From: Thermoplasmata archaeon | GTDB taxonomy: Archaea; Thermoplasmatota; Thermoplasmata; Thermoplasmatales; Thermoplasmataceae | Length of the DNA: 39,154 bases | Direction of reading: 5' to 3' | Assembly (NCBI GenBank): GCA_021806235.1 | Contig: JAJZXU010000008.1 | Coordinates: 1-39,154, forward strand | The notes under the pieces: model-generated | What the model saw: the letters and a program-made list of their open reading frames with translations, nothing else | What the model was told of the DNA's origin: nothing | Database searches by the model: none | In this document: piece by piece, positions 13,402 through 37,898 of the stretch | Layout of the letters: each line of letters begins with the position of its first letter | Position numbering within the stretch: position 1 is the stretch's first letter | Position numbers and translations under genes: made by a program

Positions 13402-14340
13402 ATGAGAATACTTGTAATTCTTCCGGCATTTTTACCTGTGGAAGATATAAAGAAAACAGTAAACCAGATAATGCCTGGAATAGAAATAAGGACGAATATG
13501 GATTTTGAGAAGGATGATGCTGAAGTTGTTGTGATAACCACATTTACACAGTTTGGGAAAAATGAAATAGATAAGTTTCCAAATTTAAAGTTTTTACAGG
13601 TTTCAAGCACGGGATACAACAATGTTGATGTAAAATATCTGAAAAGCAGGAATATTATACTGTCAAATATTCCCCGGGCAAATAAGGATGCTGTAGCCGA
13701 GCATGTAATTGCGATGGTTCTGGCATTTTTAAAGAATTTAATATTCTTTGATAGGGAAATACGTAACGGCAACTGGCCTGTGCTCACAAATTCAACCGAA
13801 TTAAATGGAAAAATCTTCGGAATTATCGGCATGGGTGCAATAGGAATTAAACTGGTACAGAGATTAATACCCTTTGGCCCGGGAATTATATACTATGATG
13901 TAAAGAGATTGCCGGCTGAGGATGAGGAGTTGTATGGATTAATATACATGGAACTTGATGATGTTATAAAGAGTTCAGATATACTATCAATACACCTGCC
14001 ACTGACAGAGGGTACATTAAACTTGTTTGATGATAAGCACTTCTCCATGATGAAGGATAATGCAATTTTTATAAATACATCCCGTGGAGAAATAATGGAT
14101 GAAAATGCACTGGTTAAGGCAATAAAAACAAAAAACATATTTGCGGGTATTGATGTATACAGTAAGGAGCCACCGGATTTTTCATCGGAACTATTTAAAC
14201 TGGGCAATGTAATATTCTCACCGCATATTGCCGGTGCAACCATTGAAAGCCAGCAGAGATTCCTGCAGGAAACTATAGGCAATTTAATAAAATACACACA
14301 GGGTTTAGATCCATTATACCAGATAAAAGAGGAATTGTAG
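13402..14340 (+). CDS. D-isomer-specific 2-hydroxyacid dehydrogenase
   Basis: A 312-residue NAD(P)-dependent enzyme interconverting a D-2-hydroxyacid and a 2-oxoacid. The Rossmann motif GIIGMGAIGIKLV is central. Catalytic Arg is in NTSRGEIMDE, Glu in IDVYSKEPPD, and His in SPHIAGAT. The frame opens at 13381 (MHTYYIIMRIL), but the ATG at 13402 starts the conserved beta strand (MRILVILPAF) and has a TATA-like element 24 nt before it. The stop TAG at 14338-14340 is 4 nt before the IscB-type element. Without that element the next gene (ThDP decarboxylase) would start almost immediately, so the two were probably one operon: oxidation of a hydroxyacid, then decarboxylation of the oxoacid. Glyoxylate/hydroxypyruvate or phosphoglycerate activity is an alternative. 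Confidence 0.9.
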   Translation: MRILVILPAFLPVEDIKKTVNQIMPGIEIRTNMDFEKDDAEVVVITTFTQFGKNEIDKFPNLKFLQVSSTGYNNVDVKYLKSRNIILSNIPRANKDAVAEHVIAMVLAFLKNLIFFDREIRNGNWPVLTNSTELNGKIFGIIGMGAIGIKLVQRLIPFGPGIIYYDVKRLPAEDEELYGLIYMELDDVIKSSDILSIHLPLTEGTLNLFDDKHFSMMKDNAIFINTSRGEIMDENALVKAIKTKNIFAGIDVYSKEPPDFSSELFKLGNVIFSPHIAGATIESQQRFLQETIGNLIKYTQGLDPLYQIKEEL

Positions 14341-14344
14341 TCAG

Positions 14345-14577
14345 CTACCCACGACTAAAGGCGTGGGCTTGTCCCGTGAGGGCAACGCAAGAGTTGATTA
14401 GGGGGCTTTGAAAATATGAAAGAAAAGCAGAAGTTAGATCGGAGAAATACATACACACCCACGGGTGCTCCACAAGCCCGTGGCAGCTGTGACCATGCAT
14501 TAAACAGAGAGGGAACTCTCAGTGTGCATGGCTTAAAAACCTCTTCTAACAACCCCGATGTGGACCTACAGTCAGGC
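14345..14577 (+). ncRNA. Putative omega RNA (IscB guide-RNA scaffold)
   Basis: In IscB loci the omega RNA is encoded between the transposon left end and iscB, with the guide derived from the flanking DNA at the 5' side. Here the segment holds successive stems: CCACGGG/CCCGTGG (about 14459-14484), an outer CCATGC/GCATGG enclosing GAGAG-GGAA-CTCTC (GNRA loop, about 14494-14532), and TACAGTC/GACTGTA running into the start of the frame (about 14567-14586). The second copy keeps the first stem with a G-U pair and the GAGAG-GAAA-CTCTC hairpin. Such preservation of pairing despite changes supports an RNA function. The guide would come from the end of the dehydrogenase gene (about 14325-14340). Transcription is inferred. 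Confidence 0.65.
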
Positions 14578-15053
14578 ATGACTGTACGGGACCTGAGAGT
14601 CCCCGTTTTAAACATGCGAAACCAACCACTAATGCCAACAACACCCGGATCCATAACAAAGATGAACCGCATTGCATCGGGAATAGAAAAAACCCATGCA
14701 AATGATGCATTTGTCATAGCCGGTGGATCAGTACAGAAGAGAACACCACCGTTTATGGTTTCCCAGAGAAGAAGGAACAACCGCTGCCTGCAATTGAACA
14801 GAAAGGGCTTTAAACCCTCTATACGGAAGAGAAGGTATTCATTGCAGCCAGGGGATACTGTTCTCTTCCAGAAAGAGGAGTGTAACGTAATGGGAATTCA
14901 TAACGTTGGAAAAAGTGTAATTATTAAAAAAGGTGAAAAAAGGATGGATGTAAGTGTAAAGAAAGTAGAGTTAAGAAGATATGGTAAAGGTTTGAAGTTC
15001 AACCTCCAATTCCTCCCACCCCTGAAGGGAGGGGGAGCCCTGGGGGCGGTCAG
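14345..15053 (+). mobile_element. IscB-type IS200/IS605-superfamily element, internally deleted (copy 1)
   Basis: A non-autonomous element of about 710 bp. The left end has a perfect hairpin (CCCACG...CGTGGG, about 14347-14367) preceded by TCAG (14341-14344). The right end has the imperfect palindrome CCCACCCCTgaAGGGAGGGG near 15016-15035 and again ends in TCAG (15050-15053). Between them lie an RNA-like scaffold and a mini-IscB frame. No TnpA transposase is present. A second copy occurs on the minus strand at 37014-37437. Both copies continue as TCAG-R-TGAA, so the exact right boundary could be 4-5 nt further. It lies between two genes of a catabolic operon. Confidence 0.8.
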
Positions 15054-15057
15054 ATGA
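14578..15057 (+). CDS. iscB: Mini-IscB: PLMP segment fused to RuvC-III and C-terminal domain
   Basis: The 159-residue frame starts RVPVLNMRNQPLMPTTPGS, which contains the PLMP motif (17-20) that names the IscB N-terminal domain. It then jumps straight to EKTHANDAFVIAGG (H40, D43), which fits RuvC-III, followed by QRRRNNRCLQLNRKGFKPS and the C-terminal SH3-like segment YSLQPGDTVLF...GVHN-type. RuvC-I, the bridge helix, RuvC-II and HNH are missing, yet the frame is intact. Full IscB is about 400-500 residues, so it cannot be a nuclease, but it might bind the RNA. The open frame extends upstream to 14416 through scaffold sequence; I prefer the ATG at 14578. Its TGA overlaps the ATG of the next gene. 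Confidence 0.75.
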   Translation: MTVRDLRVPVLNMRNQPLMPTTPGSITKMNRIASGIEKTHANDAFVIAGGSVQKRTPPFMVSQRRRNNRCLQLNRKGFKPSIRKRRYSLQPGDTVLFQKEECNVMGIHNVGKSVIIKKGEKRMDVSVKKVELRRYGKGLKFNLQFLPPLKGGGALGAVR

Positions 15058-16595
15058 AGGGCTATGAAATATTATATAATGCATTAAAGGAAAATAAAAT
15101 AGATTTTGTATCTGGCAATCCGGGAACAACCGAAATACCCATGCTGAGATCTATAAATAACTATTACCTGGCACTGCATGATTCAATTGCACTTGGGATG
15201 GCTGATGGTTATTCTCTATATAATTCAGAAGCTTCAATGGTTAATCTGCATACTATGCCGGGTATAGGAAATTCAATGGCATTTTTATTTACAGCAAAAA
15301 TGAACAGGTCCCCGGTAATAGTAACTGCAGGCCAGCAGGATACAAGGCATCTGGTTTATGATCCATTATTATCCGGAGATACACTGTCTATGGTTTCAGA
15401 TTTTGTTAAATATAAATACGAAATAAAAAGCCCCGAGGATATACCTGTAGCATTGAAAAGGGCAAGGGAAATTGCATTAACACCACCCATGGGCCCGGTA
15501 TTTTTATCATTTCCAATGGATGTAATGGATTACAGTGGGGAATACTATAAAAATTTCCACTCAGAACCGAATTATAATATCGCGGATGAAGATGCAATTA
15601 AAAATATATGTGAGAGAATAAACAGTGCAAAAAATCCGGCAATTGTTTTCGGTTATGAAATAGACCTGTACAATGCCTTTACTGAAGCAGAAGAGTTTGC
15701 AAAAAAACTGGGTGTTAAGGTTTATTCAGAGCCATTAGCATCGAGGTCCACATATAATACCAGCAATGATAATTATATGGGCGATCTGCTTCCGGCATCA
15801 ACCTTAATGAATTTAAATTTCCTCGAAAATGATTTAATCATATTCATTGGTGGTGATATTATATTTTATCCATATCTGCCGTCAAAGCCATTTATAGATA
15901 AGGATGTAATTTTTATCGGTACTGATTTATCACACAGGACTGGCGAATCATATTACATAAATCCTAAAATATTTTTAGAAAAGGCCAGAAATTTAATAAA
16001 TAAAAAGAGTAATTTTCACAGGGGGAAAGACCTGACATTTCCAAACAAAATAGCAAGGGAAAAACTTACAATGGGTGTTGATTATGTGTTATATAACGCA
16101 AAGAAAATTTTCGGTGATTATACTGTAGTTGATGAGGCAATTTCTGCAACAGAAAGTGTCAGATCAATGTTTGGCTATGGCCATAAAAAATATTTTACAG
16201 CAAAAACAGGCCAGTTAGGATGGGCAATGGCAGCATCTCTCGGCATAGCTGTAAAAAATAATAAAACCCTGGTTATTATCAGAGATGGTTCATTTATGTA
16301 TACGGTACAGAGCCTATGGACTGCAAAAAGATATAATCTGCCTGTAAAATTCCTGGTTTTAAACAATGGTGGCTACAACATTTTAAGGAGCTTTGCAGAT
16401 TCATATTATCCCGAAATGGAAAATAAGGATTATCTAACATTAAATCTGGACATTGAAAGCATTTCTAAGGGTTTTCATATAGATACAATGGTTGCATCAA
16501 ACGATTTAAATGAATTAAAATGGTTAAGGGAGGGAGATGAACCAAAAGTTTTAATTGTAAACACAGATAAAAAAATTGAAAAGATGTTTTTATAA
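15054..16595 (+). CDS. ThDP-dependent enzyme, benzoylformate decarboxylase-like
   Basis: A 513-residue three-domain ThDP enzyme (Pyr, middle, PP). It follows benzoylformate decarboxylase closely: GNPGTTE (21-27), NLHTMPGIGNSM with His66 (the BFDC His70 equivalent), and SPVIVTAGQQDTRH. The PP-domain ThDP-Mg motif reads IRDGSFMYTVQSLW...FLVLNN near the C-terminus. The glutamate that activates ThDP (usual HE/QEA motif) is replaced by Asp43 in ALHDSIALGMADGY, which may slow ylide formation or alter the reaction. It decarboxylates a 2-oxoacid to an aldehyde, which the downstream alcohol and aldehyde dehydrogenases could process. The ATG directly follows the right end of the IscB element, so its native promoter or operon link was disturbed or re-made by the insertion. 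Confidence 0.88.
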   Translation: MKGYEILYNALKENKIDFVSGNPGTTEIPMLRSINNYYLALHDSIALGMADGYSLYNSEASMVNLHTMPGIGNSMAFLFTAKMNRSPVIVTAGQQDTRHLVYDPLLSGDTLSMVSDFVKYKYEIKSPEDIPVALKRAREIALTPPMGPVFLSFPMDVMDYSGEYYKNFHSEPNYNIADEDAIKNICERINSAKNPAIVFGYEIDLYNAFTEAEEFAKKLGVKVYSEPLASRSTYNTSNDNYMGDLLPASTLMNLNFLENDLIIFIGGDIIFYPYLPSKPFIDKDVIFIGTDLSHRTGESYYINPKIFLEKARNLINKKSNFHRGKDLTFPNKIAREKLTMGVDYVLYNAKKIFGDYTVVDEAISATESVRSMFGYGHKKYFTAKTGQLGWAMAASLGIAVKNNKTLVIIRDGSFMYTVQSLWTAKRYNLPVKFLVLNNGGYNILRSFADSYYPEMENKDYLTLNLDIESISKGFHIDTMVASNDLNELKWLREGDEPKVLIVNTDKKIEKMFL

Positions 16596-32444: not shown

Positions 32445-33197
32445 TTATATATCTTCGATTTCTGAAGATACTGTTTCTATAATCTGGGCTATATCCGGAA
32501 TCCTGTCCATAACTATATTCTTTAACTCTGTGCTAAAAGTTTTATGCTGTTTTTCTATTTCATTTAAAAATAAGTTTTTTCGAAATTCAATATTATAATA
32601 TCCTAATTTTTGATTTATCAAACCTGTATTGAATTTAACGTTTTTATATGTTATTAGAAAATATATATCGTAAATATCCCTGGCCTTTTTGCGAGTATAA
32701 ATAGCCCTTACCTTTTCTGCAAGAACCTCCTCTAAATTCATGCCTGATAGTATCCGCACCGGTAAATTATATTCCGGGAAATCGAACTTTAATGGAATTT
32801 TTTCCATAATTACCTTTTCCCTTTTACTTATTTCCACATGAACAGGAGCCCTATCAAGTACTCCTGTATTTAAAGGCCCATTTGAGATTATCCTGAATGA
32901 CAATGTTACATCGTTGTTTCTTATAATTTTAAACTGATTGTTTATGCCAATTAATGAAAGGTTCCGGGAAACGGTTTCAGCTAAATTATTATCCGGTGGA
33001 GAACCTGCTGTAAAATCCAGATCCACGGAAAATCGCCTCAGTCCGTGGAAAAGCCATAAATATGTACCGCCTTTAAATATAATATCCTCATTATACAGCG
33101 AATTGAGTATTAAAACCTGCATATACCTAAGTTCCTCCTGCCATGGACGTATACCATGTAATTTTGATAGCCCAATTATCTCATCCTTGCCTATCAT
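32445..33197 (-). CDS. AbiEii-type nucleotidyltransferase toxin
   Basis: A 250-residue protein of the AbiEii/AbiGii family. It has the nucleotidyltransferase site FKGGTYLWLFHGLRRFSVDLDF, with D59 and D61 as metal ligands and GG at 43-44 as the nucleotide-binding turn. The later LEEVLAEKVRAIYTRKKARDIYDIYFL motif is also typical. Family toxins transfer nucleotides to RNA or tRNA and stop growth, and the pair can act as phage abortive infection. The start overlaps the AbiEi-like gene end by 4 nt, giving coupled translation. It may still act as an addiction module. Confidence 0.9.
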   Translation of the reverse strand: MIGKDEIIGLSKLHGIRPWQEELRYMQVLILNSLYNEDIIFKGGTYLWLFHGLRRFSVDLDFTAGSPPDNNLAETVSRNLSLIGINNQFKIIRNNDVTLSFRIISNGPLNTGVLDRAPVHVEISKREKVIMEKIPLKFDFPEYNLPVRILSGMNLEEVLAEKVRAIYTRKKARDIYDIYFLITYKNVKFNTGLINQKLGYYNIEFRKNLFLNEIEKQHKTFSTELKNIVMDRIPDIAQIIETVSSEIEDI

Positions 33198-33775
33198 GAT
33201 AATGCCCCCATTATGCCGGAAATTTTTTTATCATGTAGCATGCCTAAATCATCGATTAAACCGGAAAAATCTATTTTTTCCTTAAATTCCCTTATATCAT
33301 CCATGGAAAATATTCCATAATACAGACCATCAAATACGGCCTTTTCAGGGTTTGCAACAAAGATATAACTTCCCTTCTCCATATATCTTTTATAACCAAA
33401 GAACAGTTTGGGTTTTATTTTATGGTATACTATTCCCAGGTTATAATAATTCATTGAATTAACTGTTGTAATACACTCCACATATCTTGCAACCTGTTCT
33501 GTCATGTTATGGAATAATAATGCAGAGTTCATAGATATATACGATGGAAAAATCATCTGTGATGCTATAATAAAATTATTATCAATAAATGAAATTCTGC
33601 CGTTGAAAAGTTTAATTGCCAGGCCATTATGAACCATTCTGTTCATATAAACCCTTGATATATTTTTATCCCTGTTAATTAGATTTGAAAATTGCTGCAC
33701 ATTATATACATATATTCCCGAATTCAGGGCCAGATCCCTGATTTTATATAACGACAGCCCTTTTATCATTCCCAT
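33194..33775 (-). CDS. AbiEi-type antitoxin
   Basis: A 193-residue antitoxin candidate immediately upstream of the AbiEii toxin (4-nt overlap). The N-terminal 60 residues form a winged HTH (YVYNVQQFSNLINRDKNISRVYMNRMVHNGLAIKLFNGRISFID). The middle carries the AbiEi MNSALLFHNMTEQ block (about 81-93), and the NPEKAVFDGLYYG segment matches the conserved C-terminal part. AbiEi proteins repress their own promoter by binding inverted repeats, and a matching ATATAAC/GTTATAT repeat lies exactly at this start (33774-33793). The start at 33775 is the first ATG after that repeat. Confidence 0.88.
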   Translation of the reverse strand: MGMIKGLSLYKIRDLALNSGIYVYNVQQFSNLINRDKNISRVYMNRMVHNGLAIKLFNGRISFIDNNFIIASQMIFPSYISMNSALLFHNMTEQVARYVECITTVNSMNYYNLGIVYHKIKPKLFFGYKRYMEKGSYIFVANPEKAVFDGLYYGIFSMDDIREFKEKIDFSGLIDDLGMLHDKKISGIMGALS

Positions 33776-36526: not shown

Positions 36527-36747
36527 TTAAATCCATATCCTTTTTATTCCCTCAATATTATTAAAATCCGAATTTTCTGATAGCATTATGTTAATGTTAT
36601 TGTTAACCATTGAGGCTACGTGTATTGAATCGCCGGGCTTTAATTTATATCCTGTAATTATTTCAACTGCTTTATTATACGTATCCGCAGTTATATCCAG
36701 TATATTAACAAATGGCAATATTGAATTGTTTATAAAGTCAAATGTAC
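36527..36747 (-). pseudogene. vapC: VapC PIN-domain toxin, C-terminal half
   Basis: The frame reads FDFINNSILPFVNILDITAD, then KAVEIITGYKLKPGDSIHVASMVNNNINIMLSENSDFNNIEGIKRIWI to the stop. KPGDSIHVA is the third acidic motif of PIN RNases (D in xxDxxH), and the N/S-D-F before the last strand is the fourth. It lacks the N-terminal DxN motif, which is found 0.7 kb upstream on the same strand (37472-37644). The two halves join sensibly as YNKT-FDFINN, so one vapC gene was split by inserted DNA. A product starting from the TTG at 36718 would not be active. Confidence 0.8.
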
Positions 36748-36780
36748 CGCCTGCAAATTCGCCAAATTGTTTGATGATAA

Positions 36781-37017
36781 CTACTTATCAGTATTCCTTC
36801 CTAAATACACTAATTTTGATTTCACAGGTTCTGTCTGATCAAGTTCAGGAACTTTGCATTCACATTGCCACTTGCAATCCACGGTGATTACATGCCCGGA
36901 TGGCCAGTGTGGAAAGTTTAGGAGCATGCTTCTGGTAATGTGATGCAACCATAATGAATCTTTCATAGCCAGTTGATGCCCACAATTTTTACATACACCA
37001 AAATTTAATTTTTTCAC
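36781..37017 (-). CDS. Cys-rich small protein (possible zinc ribbon) inside the inserted DNA
   Basis: A 78-residue frame from a GTG at 37017: VKKLNFGVCKNCGHQLAMKD, then five histidines, then DCKWQCECKVPELD. Cysteines at 9, 12, 48, 52 and 54 could hold zinc. It begins exactly at the right end of the IscB-derived element (TCAG then GTG), and the longer frame from the ATG at 37041 reads through that end. It lies within the DNA that splits vapC, so it could be cargo of an insertion or a captured gene. No family recognised. Confidence 0.45.
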   Translation of the reverse strand: MKKLNFGVCKNCGHQLAMKDSLWLHHITRSMLLNFPHWPSGHVITVDCKWQCECKVPELDQTEPVKSKLVYLGRNTDK

Positions 37018-37437
37018 CTGATTATCTCCAAGGCTCCCCATCCCTTCAGGGGTGGGAGGAATTGGAGGTTAAAAATCAACCCGTTGCTATACTTTCTTAT
37101 CTTTACCTTTCTTATAATTGCATCCATATTTTTTCACCTTTATTTAAAATAAAAACCAGCAAATCGGCTTTAAGCCCCCCTGCTGACCGGGGTAGGCCCA
37201 CATCGGGATTGTTAGAAGGGGTTTTTAAACCTGGCACACTGAGAGTTTCCTCTCTGTTTAATGACTTTAATACCCCATTCTGGTGCGGGTCACAGTTGCC
37301 ACAGGCTTGTGGAGCACCCGTGGGTGTGTATGTATTTCTCCGATCTAACTTCTGCTTTTCTTTCATATTTTCAAAGCCCCCTGAGCAACTCTTGCGTTGC
37401 CTTCACGGAACAATCCCACGGCTTTAGTCATGGGTAG
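37014..37437 (-). mobile_element. IscB-derived element without nuclease (copy 2), MITE-like
   Basis: About 420 bp. The left end hairpin (CCCATG...CGTGGG, 37434-37414) is followed by GGCAACGCAAGAGTTG and about 90 nt almost identical to copy 1. The right end palindrome CCCACCCCTgaAGGGATGGGG ends near 37035, then TCAG. Only the last 37 codons of the IscB C-terminus survive (37127-37014, FNLQFLPPLKGWGA shared with copy 1). It interrupts vapC, together with the small Cys-rich ORF. It has no transposase, so it would need TnpA in trans. Confidence 0.75.
37128..37437 (-). ncRNA. Putative omega RNA scaffold (copy 2)
   Basis: Homologous to 14345-14577 (plus strand). Preserved stems: CCACGGG/CCTGTGG (one G-U relative to copy 1) and GAGAG-GAAA-CTCTC with a GNRA loop. 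It differs 3' of this: CCCCGG...GGGGGG and the palindrome GGCTTaAAGCC replace the TACAGTC/GACTGTA stem of copy 1. If transcribed from vapC into the element, the guide would be the flanking end of the vapC N-terminal part (about 37440-37455, complement). Expression unproven. Confidence 0.55.
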
Positions 37438-37471
37438 TTAACGCACTTTACCTCTTCGCTGATAACTTAAC

Positions 37472-37644
37472 GTCTTATTATATATAATATTATTTTTTTT
37501 ACTGGATATATAAATTAATCTATCAAAGATGAGAATATTTGCATACCGGTCATATTTATTATTGATCTTAATGTATTCTGTACTGTATTCATCCGTAAAG
37601 CAGTTTAAACAGGTAAAAAAGTTTGCATCAATAAACAGATTCAA
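37472..37644 (-). pseudogene. vapC: VapC PIN-domain toxin, N-terminal half
   Basis: The frame starts with a TTG at 37644 that overlaps the TGA of the vapB gene. It reads MNLFIDANFFTCLNCFTDEY with the first PIN Asp in FIDAN, then RYANILIFDRLIYISSKKNNIIYNKT. It then continues SYQRRGKVR to a TAA inside the left end of the IscB-type element (37438). The C-terminal half lies at 36527-36747. The full PIN protein would be about 115-130 residues. The toxin is inactive unless the element excises. Confidence 0.8.
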
Positions 37645-37898
37645 TCGAATTCATCCTCCAGTGAATAATTTTTATCTGATTTTTTAATTTTATATTTTTT
37701 TATTAACGCTTCATGTGATTTCAAAGCATCTATTAATTTTAATAAATCCTTATTTTTTTTATTCTTTTTAAGTGTTATGCCATCATTTACCGATATTTCA
37801 AGTATGTCGCCCTCATTTATTCCTGCATCCTCCCTGATAGATTTTGGTATAATGATGTATCCTCCTTTTCCAACTTTTACTTTCGTAGTTAAATTAAT
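37641..37898 (-). CDS. vapB: AbrB/MazE-type antitoxin (VapB), no standard start codon
   Basis: The translation LTTKVKVGKGGYIIIPKSI, then REDAGINEGDILEISVNDG is the AbrB swapped-hairpin DNA-binding domain. A helical tail (KNKDLLKLIDALKSHEALIKKYKIKK) then ends EDEF near the toxin start, which is the toxin-binding part. The stop TGA overlaps the vapC TTG. The frame has a TAG just upstream (37901-37899), and no ATG, GTG or TTG occurs before the domain; the first codons are ATT AAT TTA. A TATA (TTTATACTA, about 37915-37907) lies upstream. It may use a rare start or have decayed with its toxin. About 85 residues. Confidence 0.65.
   Translation of the reverse strand: MNLTTKVKVGKGGYIIIPKSIREDAGINEGDILEISVNDGITLKKNKKNKDLLKLIDALKSHEALIKKYKIKKSDKNYSLEDEFD

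Follow-up and report, generated by a model that had tools for sequence, protein, structure and literature searches.

Background

The 39,154-nt stretch of DNA analyzed here (the window: positions 1 to 39,154 of contig JAJZXU010000008.1, assembly GCA_021806235.1 of a Thermoplasmata archaeon) holds two copies of a sequence that resembles a folded RNA, one next to a dehydrogenase gene and one next to part of a vapC-like gene, which raises the question of what such an RNA does at these places. An earlier note had proposed, from the letters alone, that both copies are omega RNAs with a conserved structure and with guides taken from the adjacent host DNA. IscB, a transposon-encoded relative and presumed ancestor of Cas9, uses an omega RNA with a 5' guide together with a 3' target-adjacent motif (TAM). 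Taken jointly with the mechanism proposed below, it is quite probable that both RNAs are omega RNA scaffolds (Rfam family HEARO) of a non-autonomous IscB family of the IS200/IS605 type. The family is known, and deletion derivatives are ordinary for such elements. What looks like a new variant is a reading frame that spans the whole element, omega RNA included, combined with docking of the element at host start codons; it is this frame, running into the start codon of the host gene, that most deserves a test.

Omega RNA scaffolds and their predicted guides

The scaffolds, their predicted guides and the nexus pseudoknot are located as follows.

14340-14569, forward strand: copy 1 omega RNA scaffold, HEARO RF02033, complete model 1-211 (cmscan)
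37192-37442, reverse strand: copy 2 omega RNA scaffold, HEARO match with a 21-nt insertion in a terminal hairpin
14324-14339, forward strand: predicted copy 1 guide, about 16 nt of host DNA at the 3' end of the dehydrogenase gene, placed by its position 5' of the scaffold
37443-37458, reverse strand: predicted copy 2 guide, placed by position, within the 5' part of the split vapC-like gene
14469-14474, forward strand: loop strand TCCACA of the nexus pseudoknot, pairing with 14559-14564
14559-14564, forward strand: downstream strand TGTGGA of the nexus pseudoknot, pairing with 14469-14474

Copy 1 matches HEARO with 118.9 bits (E 3.6e-24), above the gathering score of 83, the best score among the genome's 11 HEARO hits; its predicted fold is better than that of 200 of 200 shuffled sequences (z -3.82). 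The similarity between the copies, put earlier at about 90 nearly identical nucleotides, is more extensive: 93% identity over 155 nt (14340-14494 and 37288-37442), followed by a second block of 72 nt at 90% (14498-14569 and 37192-37263). The pairings pointed out before were found again, namely CCACGGG with CCCGTGG (CCTGTGG in copy 2, giving a G-U pair), the stem-loop GAGAG-GGAA-CTCTC (loop GAAA in copy 2) and a wobble change in a terminal hairpin, which is a C-to-T change in the 5' hairpin. The 21-nt insertion of copy 2 also occurs in another element, G009:C50.

Assignment of the guide to the adjoining host DNA agrees with the known 5'-guide architecture, and for copy 1 it would place the guide at the 3' end of the dehydrogenase gene; in empty sites, this left flank runs straight on into the ATGA flank. 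Other targets of the predicted copy 1 guide were sought by pattern: with up to two mismatches no site besides itself was found, and with up to three there were 16 sites versus 31 for a reversed control.

Conservation of the RNA structure

Eleven HEARO elements of the same genome and 24 from relatives gave a set of 35, of which the 31 scoring at least 50 bits, a choice that favors the Rfam structure, were aligned with MAFFT without fitting to structure. Under the Rfam structure, to which the pseudoknot was added in the analysis, 84.6% of alignment cells are paired, versus 35-42% for slid structures. Double-sided changes occur in 26 pairs (18.3 +/- 2.3 after shuffling) and 105 cells (39.3 +/- 5.7), and none of 500 shuffles reached the observed pairs or cells. 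Unaided, RNAalifold predicted only 20 pairs from the alignment, 10 of them with a double-sided change. The nexus pseudoknot TCCACA/TGTGGA, absent from the earlier note, is paired in 96.6% of cells across 30 distinct sequences; its counterpart in the OgeuIscB omega RNA is the nexus pseudoknot reported in PMC9640706. Covariation reaches the internal helices 8 and 12, which together with the pseudoknot lie about 120-225 nt from the left end. The proposed identity as omega RNA is supported by the HEARO match, the iscB remnants downstream, the covariation in the family and the nexus pseudoknot.

Copy 1 is an insertion that has lost the IscB core

The following features belong to the copy 1 element.

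14340-15053, forward strand: whole copy 1 element, 714 bp, a deletion derivative of an IscB element, delimited by empty sites in relatives
14640-14649, forward strand: approximate internal iscB deletion junction, PLMPTTP joined to GSITK, from alignment with an intact copy
15042-15046, forward strand: Shine-Dalgarno-like GGGGG, close to the right end and 7 nt ahead of the start codon of the host gene
15054-15057, forward strand: ATGA, which is the insertion target, the predicted TAM, the stop (TGA) of the element open reading frame (ORF) and the start (ATG) of the thiamine pyrophosphate (TPP)-enzyme gene at 15054-16595

A query in which the two flanks of the element (up to 14339 and from 15054) are fused matches genome G024 without gaps over 240 of 240 bases at 90%. 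Identity is 82-83% in G027, at a second G024 locus and in G028, and G027, G020 and G021 hold more distant matches. Since these sites are uninterrupted, copy 1 is a 714-bp insertion between TA and ATGA without target duplication. It separates the dehydrogenase gene on its left from the TPP-enzyme gene on its right, which starts at the ATG of the target and matches Pfam TPP_enzyme from residue 1.

In copy 1, iscB passes from PLMPTTP directly to GSITK...KTHANDAF, so that RuvC-I, the bridge helix, RuvC-II and HNH are lost. The same deletion junction is found in the copy on contig C23. This had been considered as proof that elements lacking iscB move; it was dropped as such because gene conversion can also spread a deletion, and such mobility is only likely.

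Intact IscB elsewhere in the genome

Neither window copy has a working iscB in cis, only remnants of the gene following the scaffolds. The genome (1.93 Mb, 37 contigs) holds 33 BLAST matches to the element in addition to its HEARO hits, and among its contigs C31 carries the sole full-length intact IscB, an open frame of 481 codons. This protein matches NF040563 with 378.6 bits (cut-off 175) and Pfam RRXRR with 3.2e-66, has an HNH domain, and contains the motifs PLMP at residue 5, LGIDPGYK at 48, RRNRRN at 90, IIEIAKFD at 143, HNH at 198-228 and KTHANDAF at 285. The set that marks IscB endonucleases (PLMP, RuvC-I/II/III, bridge helix and HNH) is complete in C31 and incomplete in the window copies. 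A profile built from six relatives hits IscB chains of known structure, e.g. 7utn and 7xht. In relatives and at C31, the scaffold stands just 5' of an iscB/HNH ORF. Halves of IscB elements at the ends of contigs C26, C27, C10 and C2 of this genome (G000) suggest further near-identical copies that were not assembled.

Counting this genome, HEARO is present in 10 of 77 genomes of the archaeal family and in 15 of 400 genomes of the class. Full-length iscB occurs in G024, G027, G029 and G042, and a frameshifted one in G053. In the G024:C37 protein (L118) the RuvC-I aspartate is replaced by glycine, so full length is no proof of activity and this protein may be inactive. No tnpA was found in the IscB elements read; the nine Y1 transposase matches of the genome lie elsewhere than in the elements.

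Docking at host start codons

All 16 copies of this genome whose right end could be aligned to copy 1 are followed directly by RTGA, and at 13 of them the RTGA opens an ORF of at least 100 codons. As a background, 85 of 651 RTGA sites in the window open at least 100 codons (p = 1.2e-9), and 11 of 651 are the first ATG or GTG of such an ORF (p 4.9e-21). The remaining three copies open shorter ORFs: 78 codons at copy 2 and 3 codons each at the C15c and C5 copies. Genes behind the elements include rpoB, nuoB, rad50, recJ, leuS, ileS and NAD kinase. The C31 copy, which encodes the intact IscB, lies exactly at the rpoB start codon, a site empty in 9 of 9 other genomes of the genus; the site of the C23 copy, before nuoB, is empty in 8 of 9, the ninth (G024) breaking at contig ends there. 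The fixed tetranucleotide RTGA and the empty sites without target-site duplication are those of the IS200/IS605 type. The motif itself is not new, as elements of the 2009 HEARO description reportedly precede ATGA or GTGA.

Across the family, 26 of 26 right ends have RTGA, 25 a Shine-Dalgarno-like motif and 22 an ORF of at least 100 codons; the search pattern itself required a purine-rich motif and NTGA, so the first two counts are partly built in, and the 16 copies placed by alignment form the independent set. Nine of the 35 HEARO elements had no usable right end, five of them at contig ends and four (G022:C35a, G024:C55, G041:C43 and G042:C9) without a recognizable end. The end of G053:C116 is doubtful, that of G042:C24 was set from sequence, and four CTG|ATGA ends were shifted by 3 bases. 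Outside the family, 8 of 25 right ends open at least 100 codons, so insertion at start codons occurs elsewhere too, and one has a Shine-Dalgarno-like motif (RTGA was part of this search). The Shine-Dalgarno-like motif and the high rate of start codons look specific to this IscB family.

The insertions are not all independent, as C15a and G024:C30 are one orthologous insertion. It lies between rpsO (named by eye) and recJ (loci L033, G000:C15 at about 40659-41696, and L133); the two species differ in internal deletions, and the left end of the element adds a short tail to the upstream product.

A reading frame through the omega RNA

The frame of copy 1 and its putative translation signal are at these positions.

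14416-15057, forward strand: ORF of 213 codons that begins at an ATG within the omega RNA, covers PLMP and the C-terminal portion of IscB and has its TGA stop inside the host ATGA
14401-14405, forward strand: GGGGG, 5' strand of the nexus stem and presumed Shine-Dalgarno-like sequence before the ATG at 14416

The 213-codon product matches NF040563 weakly (E 1e-4, below cut-off). The family labels IshB and IsrB were rejected for it as RuvC-I, RuvC-II and HNH are all missing. Of the 31 aligned sequences, 29 have the iscB frame open across the scaffold, and 27 differ in length by multiples of three. In most cases AGGAGG or GGGGG, the 5' strand of the nexus stem, precedes the frame's first ATG; this strand reads AGGAGG in more distant members of the lineage. 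In L141 the first ATG lies downstream of the scaffold (with GTG at the usual place), and L149 has none in the scaffold. At the other end, a right end was mapped for 8 full-length elements of the family: in 6 of them iscB stops at the TGA within the host ATGA, and in the remaining two at a TAG three bases earlier. A single frame from scaffold to junction stop, defined as one that takes in at least the last 60 nt of the scaffold, was found in 17 of the 26 elements with right ends. Of these 26, 18 are deletion derivatives, and in 11 of the 18 the frame runs unbroken into the host ATGA (binomial 0.014 for an expected one in three). Even the strongly decayed copies C8c and G009:C58 (26-28 bits), as well as C30, retain the frame to the junction stop.

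Among 80 GTDB loci, HEARO scored above cut-off in 69. Of the 23 most similar loci (L141-L167), 20 have the frame over 0.67-0.85 of the scaffold, whereas in the other 46 coverage is at most 0.42 and none is open; the division into 23 and 46 follows a similarity ranking, not a tree. In three of the 23, the Methanosarcinales IscB loci L156, L161 and L167, the scaffold frame forms a leader ORF of its own, with its stop shortly after the iscB start codon.

No amino-acid constraint was detected in the scaffold-encoded extension, where the entropies of the three codon positions are 0.896, 0.911 and 0.966 (p 0.22 and 0.52). A domain in this extension was considered and rejected, without a fold search, on an AlphaFold model that is weak overall (14 sequences, mean predicted local distance difference test, pLDDT, 63.7) and has pLDDT below 50 at residues 1-62 and 459-475, the latter being the last 17 residues. 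The absence of codon-position bias and the predicted disorder would fit a frame maintained as such, whatever it encodes, but also an accident. In a neutral simulation that ignores frameshifts, and is only suggestive, the chance that a frame stays open is 0.008-0.215 per element if all substitutions are neutral and 0.08-0.45 if half are.

Proposed mechanism and alternative explanations

The scaffold fold with its predicted pseudoknot, the insertion of copy 1 5' of ATGA, the loss of the catalytic core in copy 1 and the intact IscB elsewhere are read from the sequence itself. We propose that a Y1 transposase acting in trans would move the element into RTGA sites and that transcription of the omega RNA would take in about 16 nt of host DNA from the left flank as its guide. 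IscB made in trans, for example from C31, together with the copy 1 RNA would then cleave an empty allele that carries the guide target and the ATGA TAM, and repair would copy the element back. Translation starting at the ATG in the omega RNA could be relayed to the host gene through the open frame, which has Shine-Dalgarno-like sequences at both ends. Since the RTGA targets are mostly start codons of host genes, the element would keep the frame open, and insertion would be nearly neutral.

Several observations weigh against this reading. Pairing-preserving changes had been claimed from the two copies; structure conservation of this kind holds over the 31 homologues but not for the two copies, because ten copies of this genome alone show no covariation excess (3 cells versus 2.9 after shuffling), so two copies could not carry the claim. 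Copy 2 scores 64.2 bits (E 7.1e-11, cmscan), below the gathering score, and its fold is unremarkable (z -1.42; 14 of 200 shuffles equally good). No empty site for copy 2 was found in 10 genomes of the genus; its left flank, where a guide in vapC had been suggested, is a split vapC-like gene. Divergence between copy 1 and the C23 copy is mosaic: 14 of 230 positions in the scaffold, 1 of 95 in the next 95 nt and 57 of 386 in the rest. Slower evolution of the scaffold is therefore inseparable from gene conversion, and the test of this in copies lacking iscB, for which the two share a deletion junction, was void. Finally, the 5' hairpin of the scaffold doubles as a transposon end, so its conservation need not mean an RNA function. 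The degraded copy 2, the missing covariation and the mosaic, together with the loss of the iscB core from both copies, would be expected of dead relics, i.e. decaying IscB elements whose scaffolds look conserved as the copies are young or exchange sequence. We regard this as a serious possibility, somewhat short of an even chance; the score of copy 1, the intact IscB of the genome and the frame into the host ATGA in 11 of 18 deletion derivatives speak against it. It is improbable that the structure is kept for DNA, with palindromes serving single-strand DNA recognition by a Y1 transposase. The 5' and right-end hairpins are indeed transposon ends, the smaller derivatives C34 and C1 retain little else, and stem-loop 1 (SL1), dispensable for IsrB nicking, may serve mobility according to PMC9581776; however, an IS200/IS605 end needs neither the covariation in helices 8 and 12 nor a long-range pseudoknot.

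The coding role is more tentative than the omega RNA identity: with a probability that we set clearly below even, one archaeal-centered IscB lineage has an omega RNA that is also coding, where ribosomes would read the element to the TGA at the host junction and re-initiate on the overlapping start codon. As a built-in switch, a folded guide RNA would block translation and translation would block folding, and the relay would let the element live at the starts of essential genes (rpoB, leuS, ileS, nuoB) even after iscB is deleted. It comes close to an even chance that the frame is a by-product, an ancestral accident, and the start-codon location the outcome of purging insertions inside genes. 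The codon positions that vary alike, the disorder predicted over residues 1-62 and the simulated chances of 0.08-0.45 all suit such an accident, but 29 of 31 sequences have the frame open and 27 of 31 differ in length by threes, the frame is open in 20 of 23 lineage loci versus 0 of 46 others, a Shine-Dalgarno-like sequence precedes its ATG, and purging alone would leave copies at intergenic RTGA sites too.

Relation to known systems

In their whole-model fold, position 5' of iscB and nexus pseudoknot the scaffolds resemble other HEARO (RF02033) omega RNAs of IscB; they differ in being open in the iscB frame, with a Shine-Dalgarno-like sequence and an ATG. Like IscB/ISC elements of the IS200/IS605 type, the family has an intact member in the genome that matches NF040563 and inserts 5' of RTGA without duplication; unlike them, iscB ends in the TGA of the target (6 of 8 full-length elements), no tnpA was seen in the elements and deletion derivatives are many. 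HEARO and IscB are treated as one family (PMC9755519), IscB-HEARO is noted in archaea (PMC12988326), and TnpB-type nucleases are described as cutting the excised donor, after which repair restores the element (PMC11870625). PMC9581776 reports an NTGA TAM for DtIsrB and says that standalone, trans-acting omega RNAs work with IscB; these likewise have a scaffold without a working iscB beside it, whereas the copies here are recognizable deletion derivatives with intact element ends. According to the same paper, the DtIsrB omega RNA also overlaps the translation signal of its nuclease, but there the Shine-Dalgarno sequence lies in the terminal hairpin at the 3' end, before the coding region, and here it lies in the nexus stem with the frame running through the scaffold. 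Among titles and abstract openings, a sample outside which the primary HEARO, ISC and OMEGA papers fall, we recognized neither an open frame through an IscB omega RNA nor translational coupling of an IscB element to a start-codon target.

How IscB elements persist without killing their hosts could be tested directly in a family that targets start codons in frame, where a relay would avoid harm; if the relay exists, guide RNA and mRNA would be one molecule, mutually exclusive by folding. Even if it does not, the genome offers a natural set of omega RNAs lacking iscB beside an intact IscB, suited to the study of their use in trans.

Copy 2 and neighboring genes

The copy 2 element and its junction are placed as follows.

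37018-37442, reverse strand: copy 2 element, 425 bp, omega RNA and right end with nearly all of iscB lost
37014-37017, reverse strand: GTGA after copy 2, start of a 78-codon ORF (36784-37017)

To the left of copy 2 lies the N-terminal half of the vapC-like gene, and to its right the 78-codon ORF followed by the PIN-domain half. This vapC-like PIN-domain gene (36546-37652, reverse strand) is seemingly split by copy 2 and the 78-codon ORF, which contains cysteines and has no family assignment. An AbiEii nucleotidyltransferase toxin gene lies at 32448-33775 on the reverse strand (Pfam 2.4e-26); the adjoining ORF has no convincing Pfam name and occupies the place of the antitoxin.
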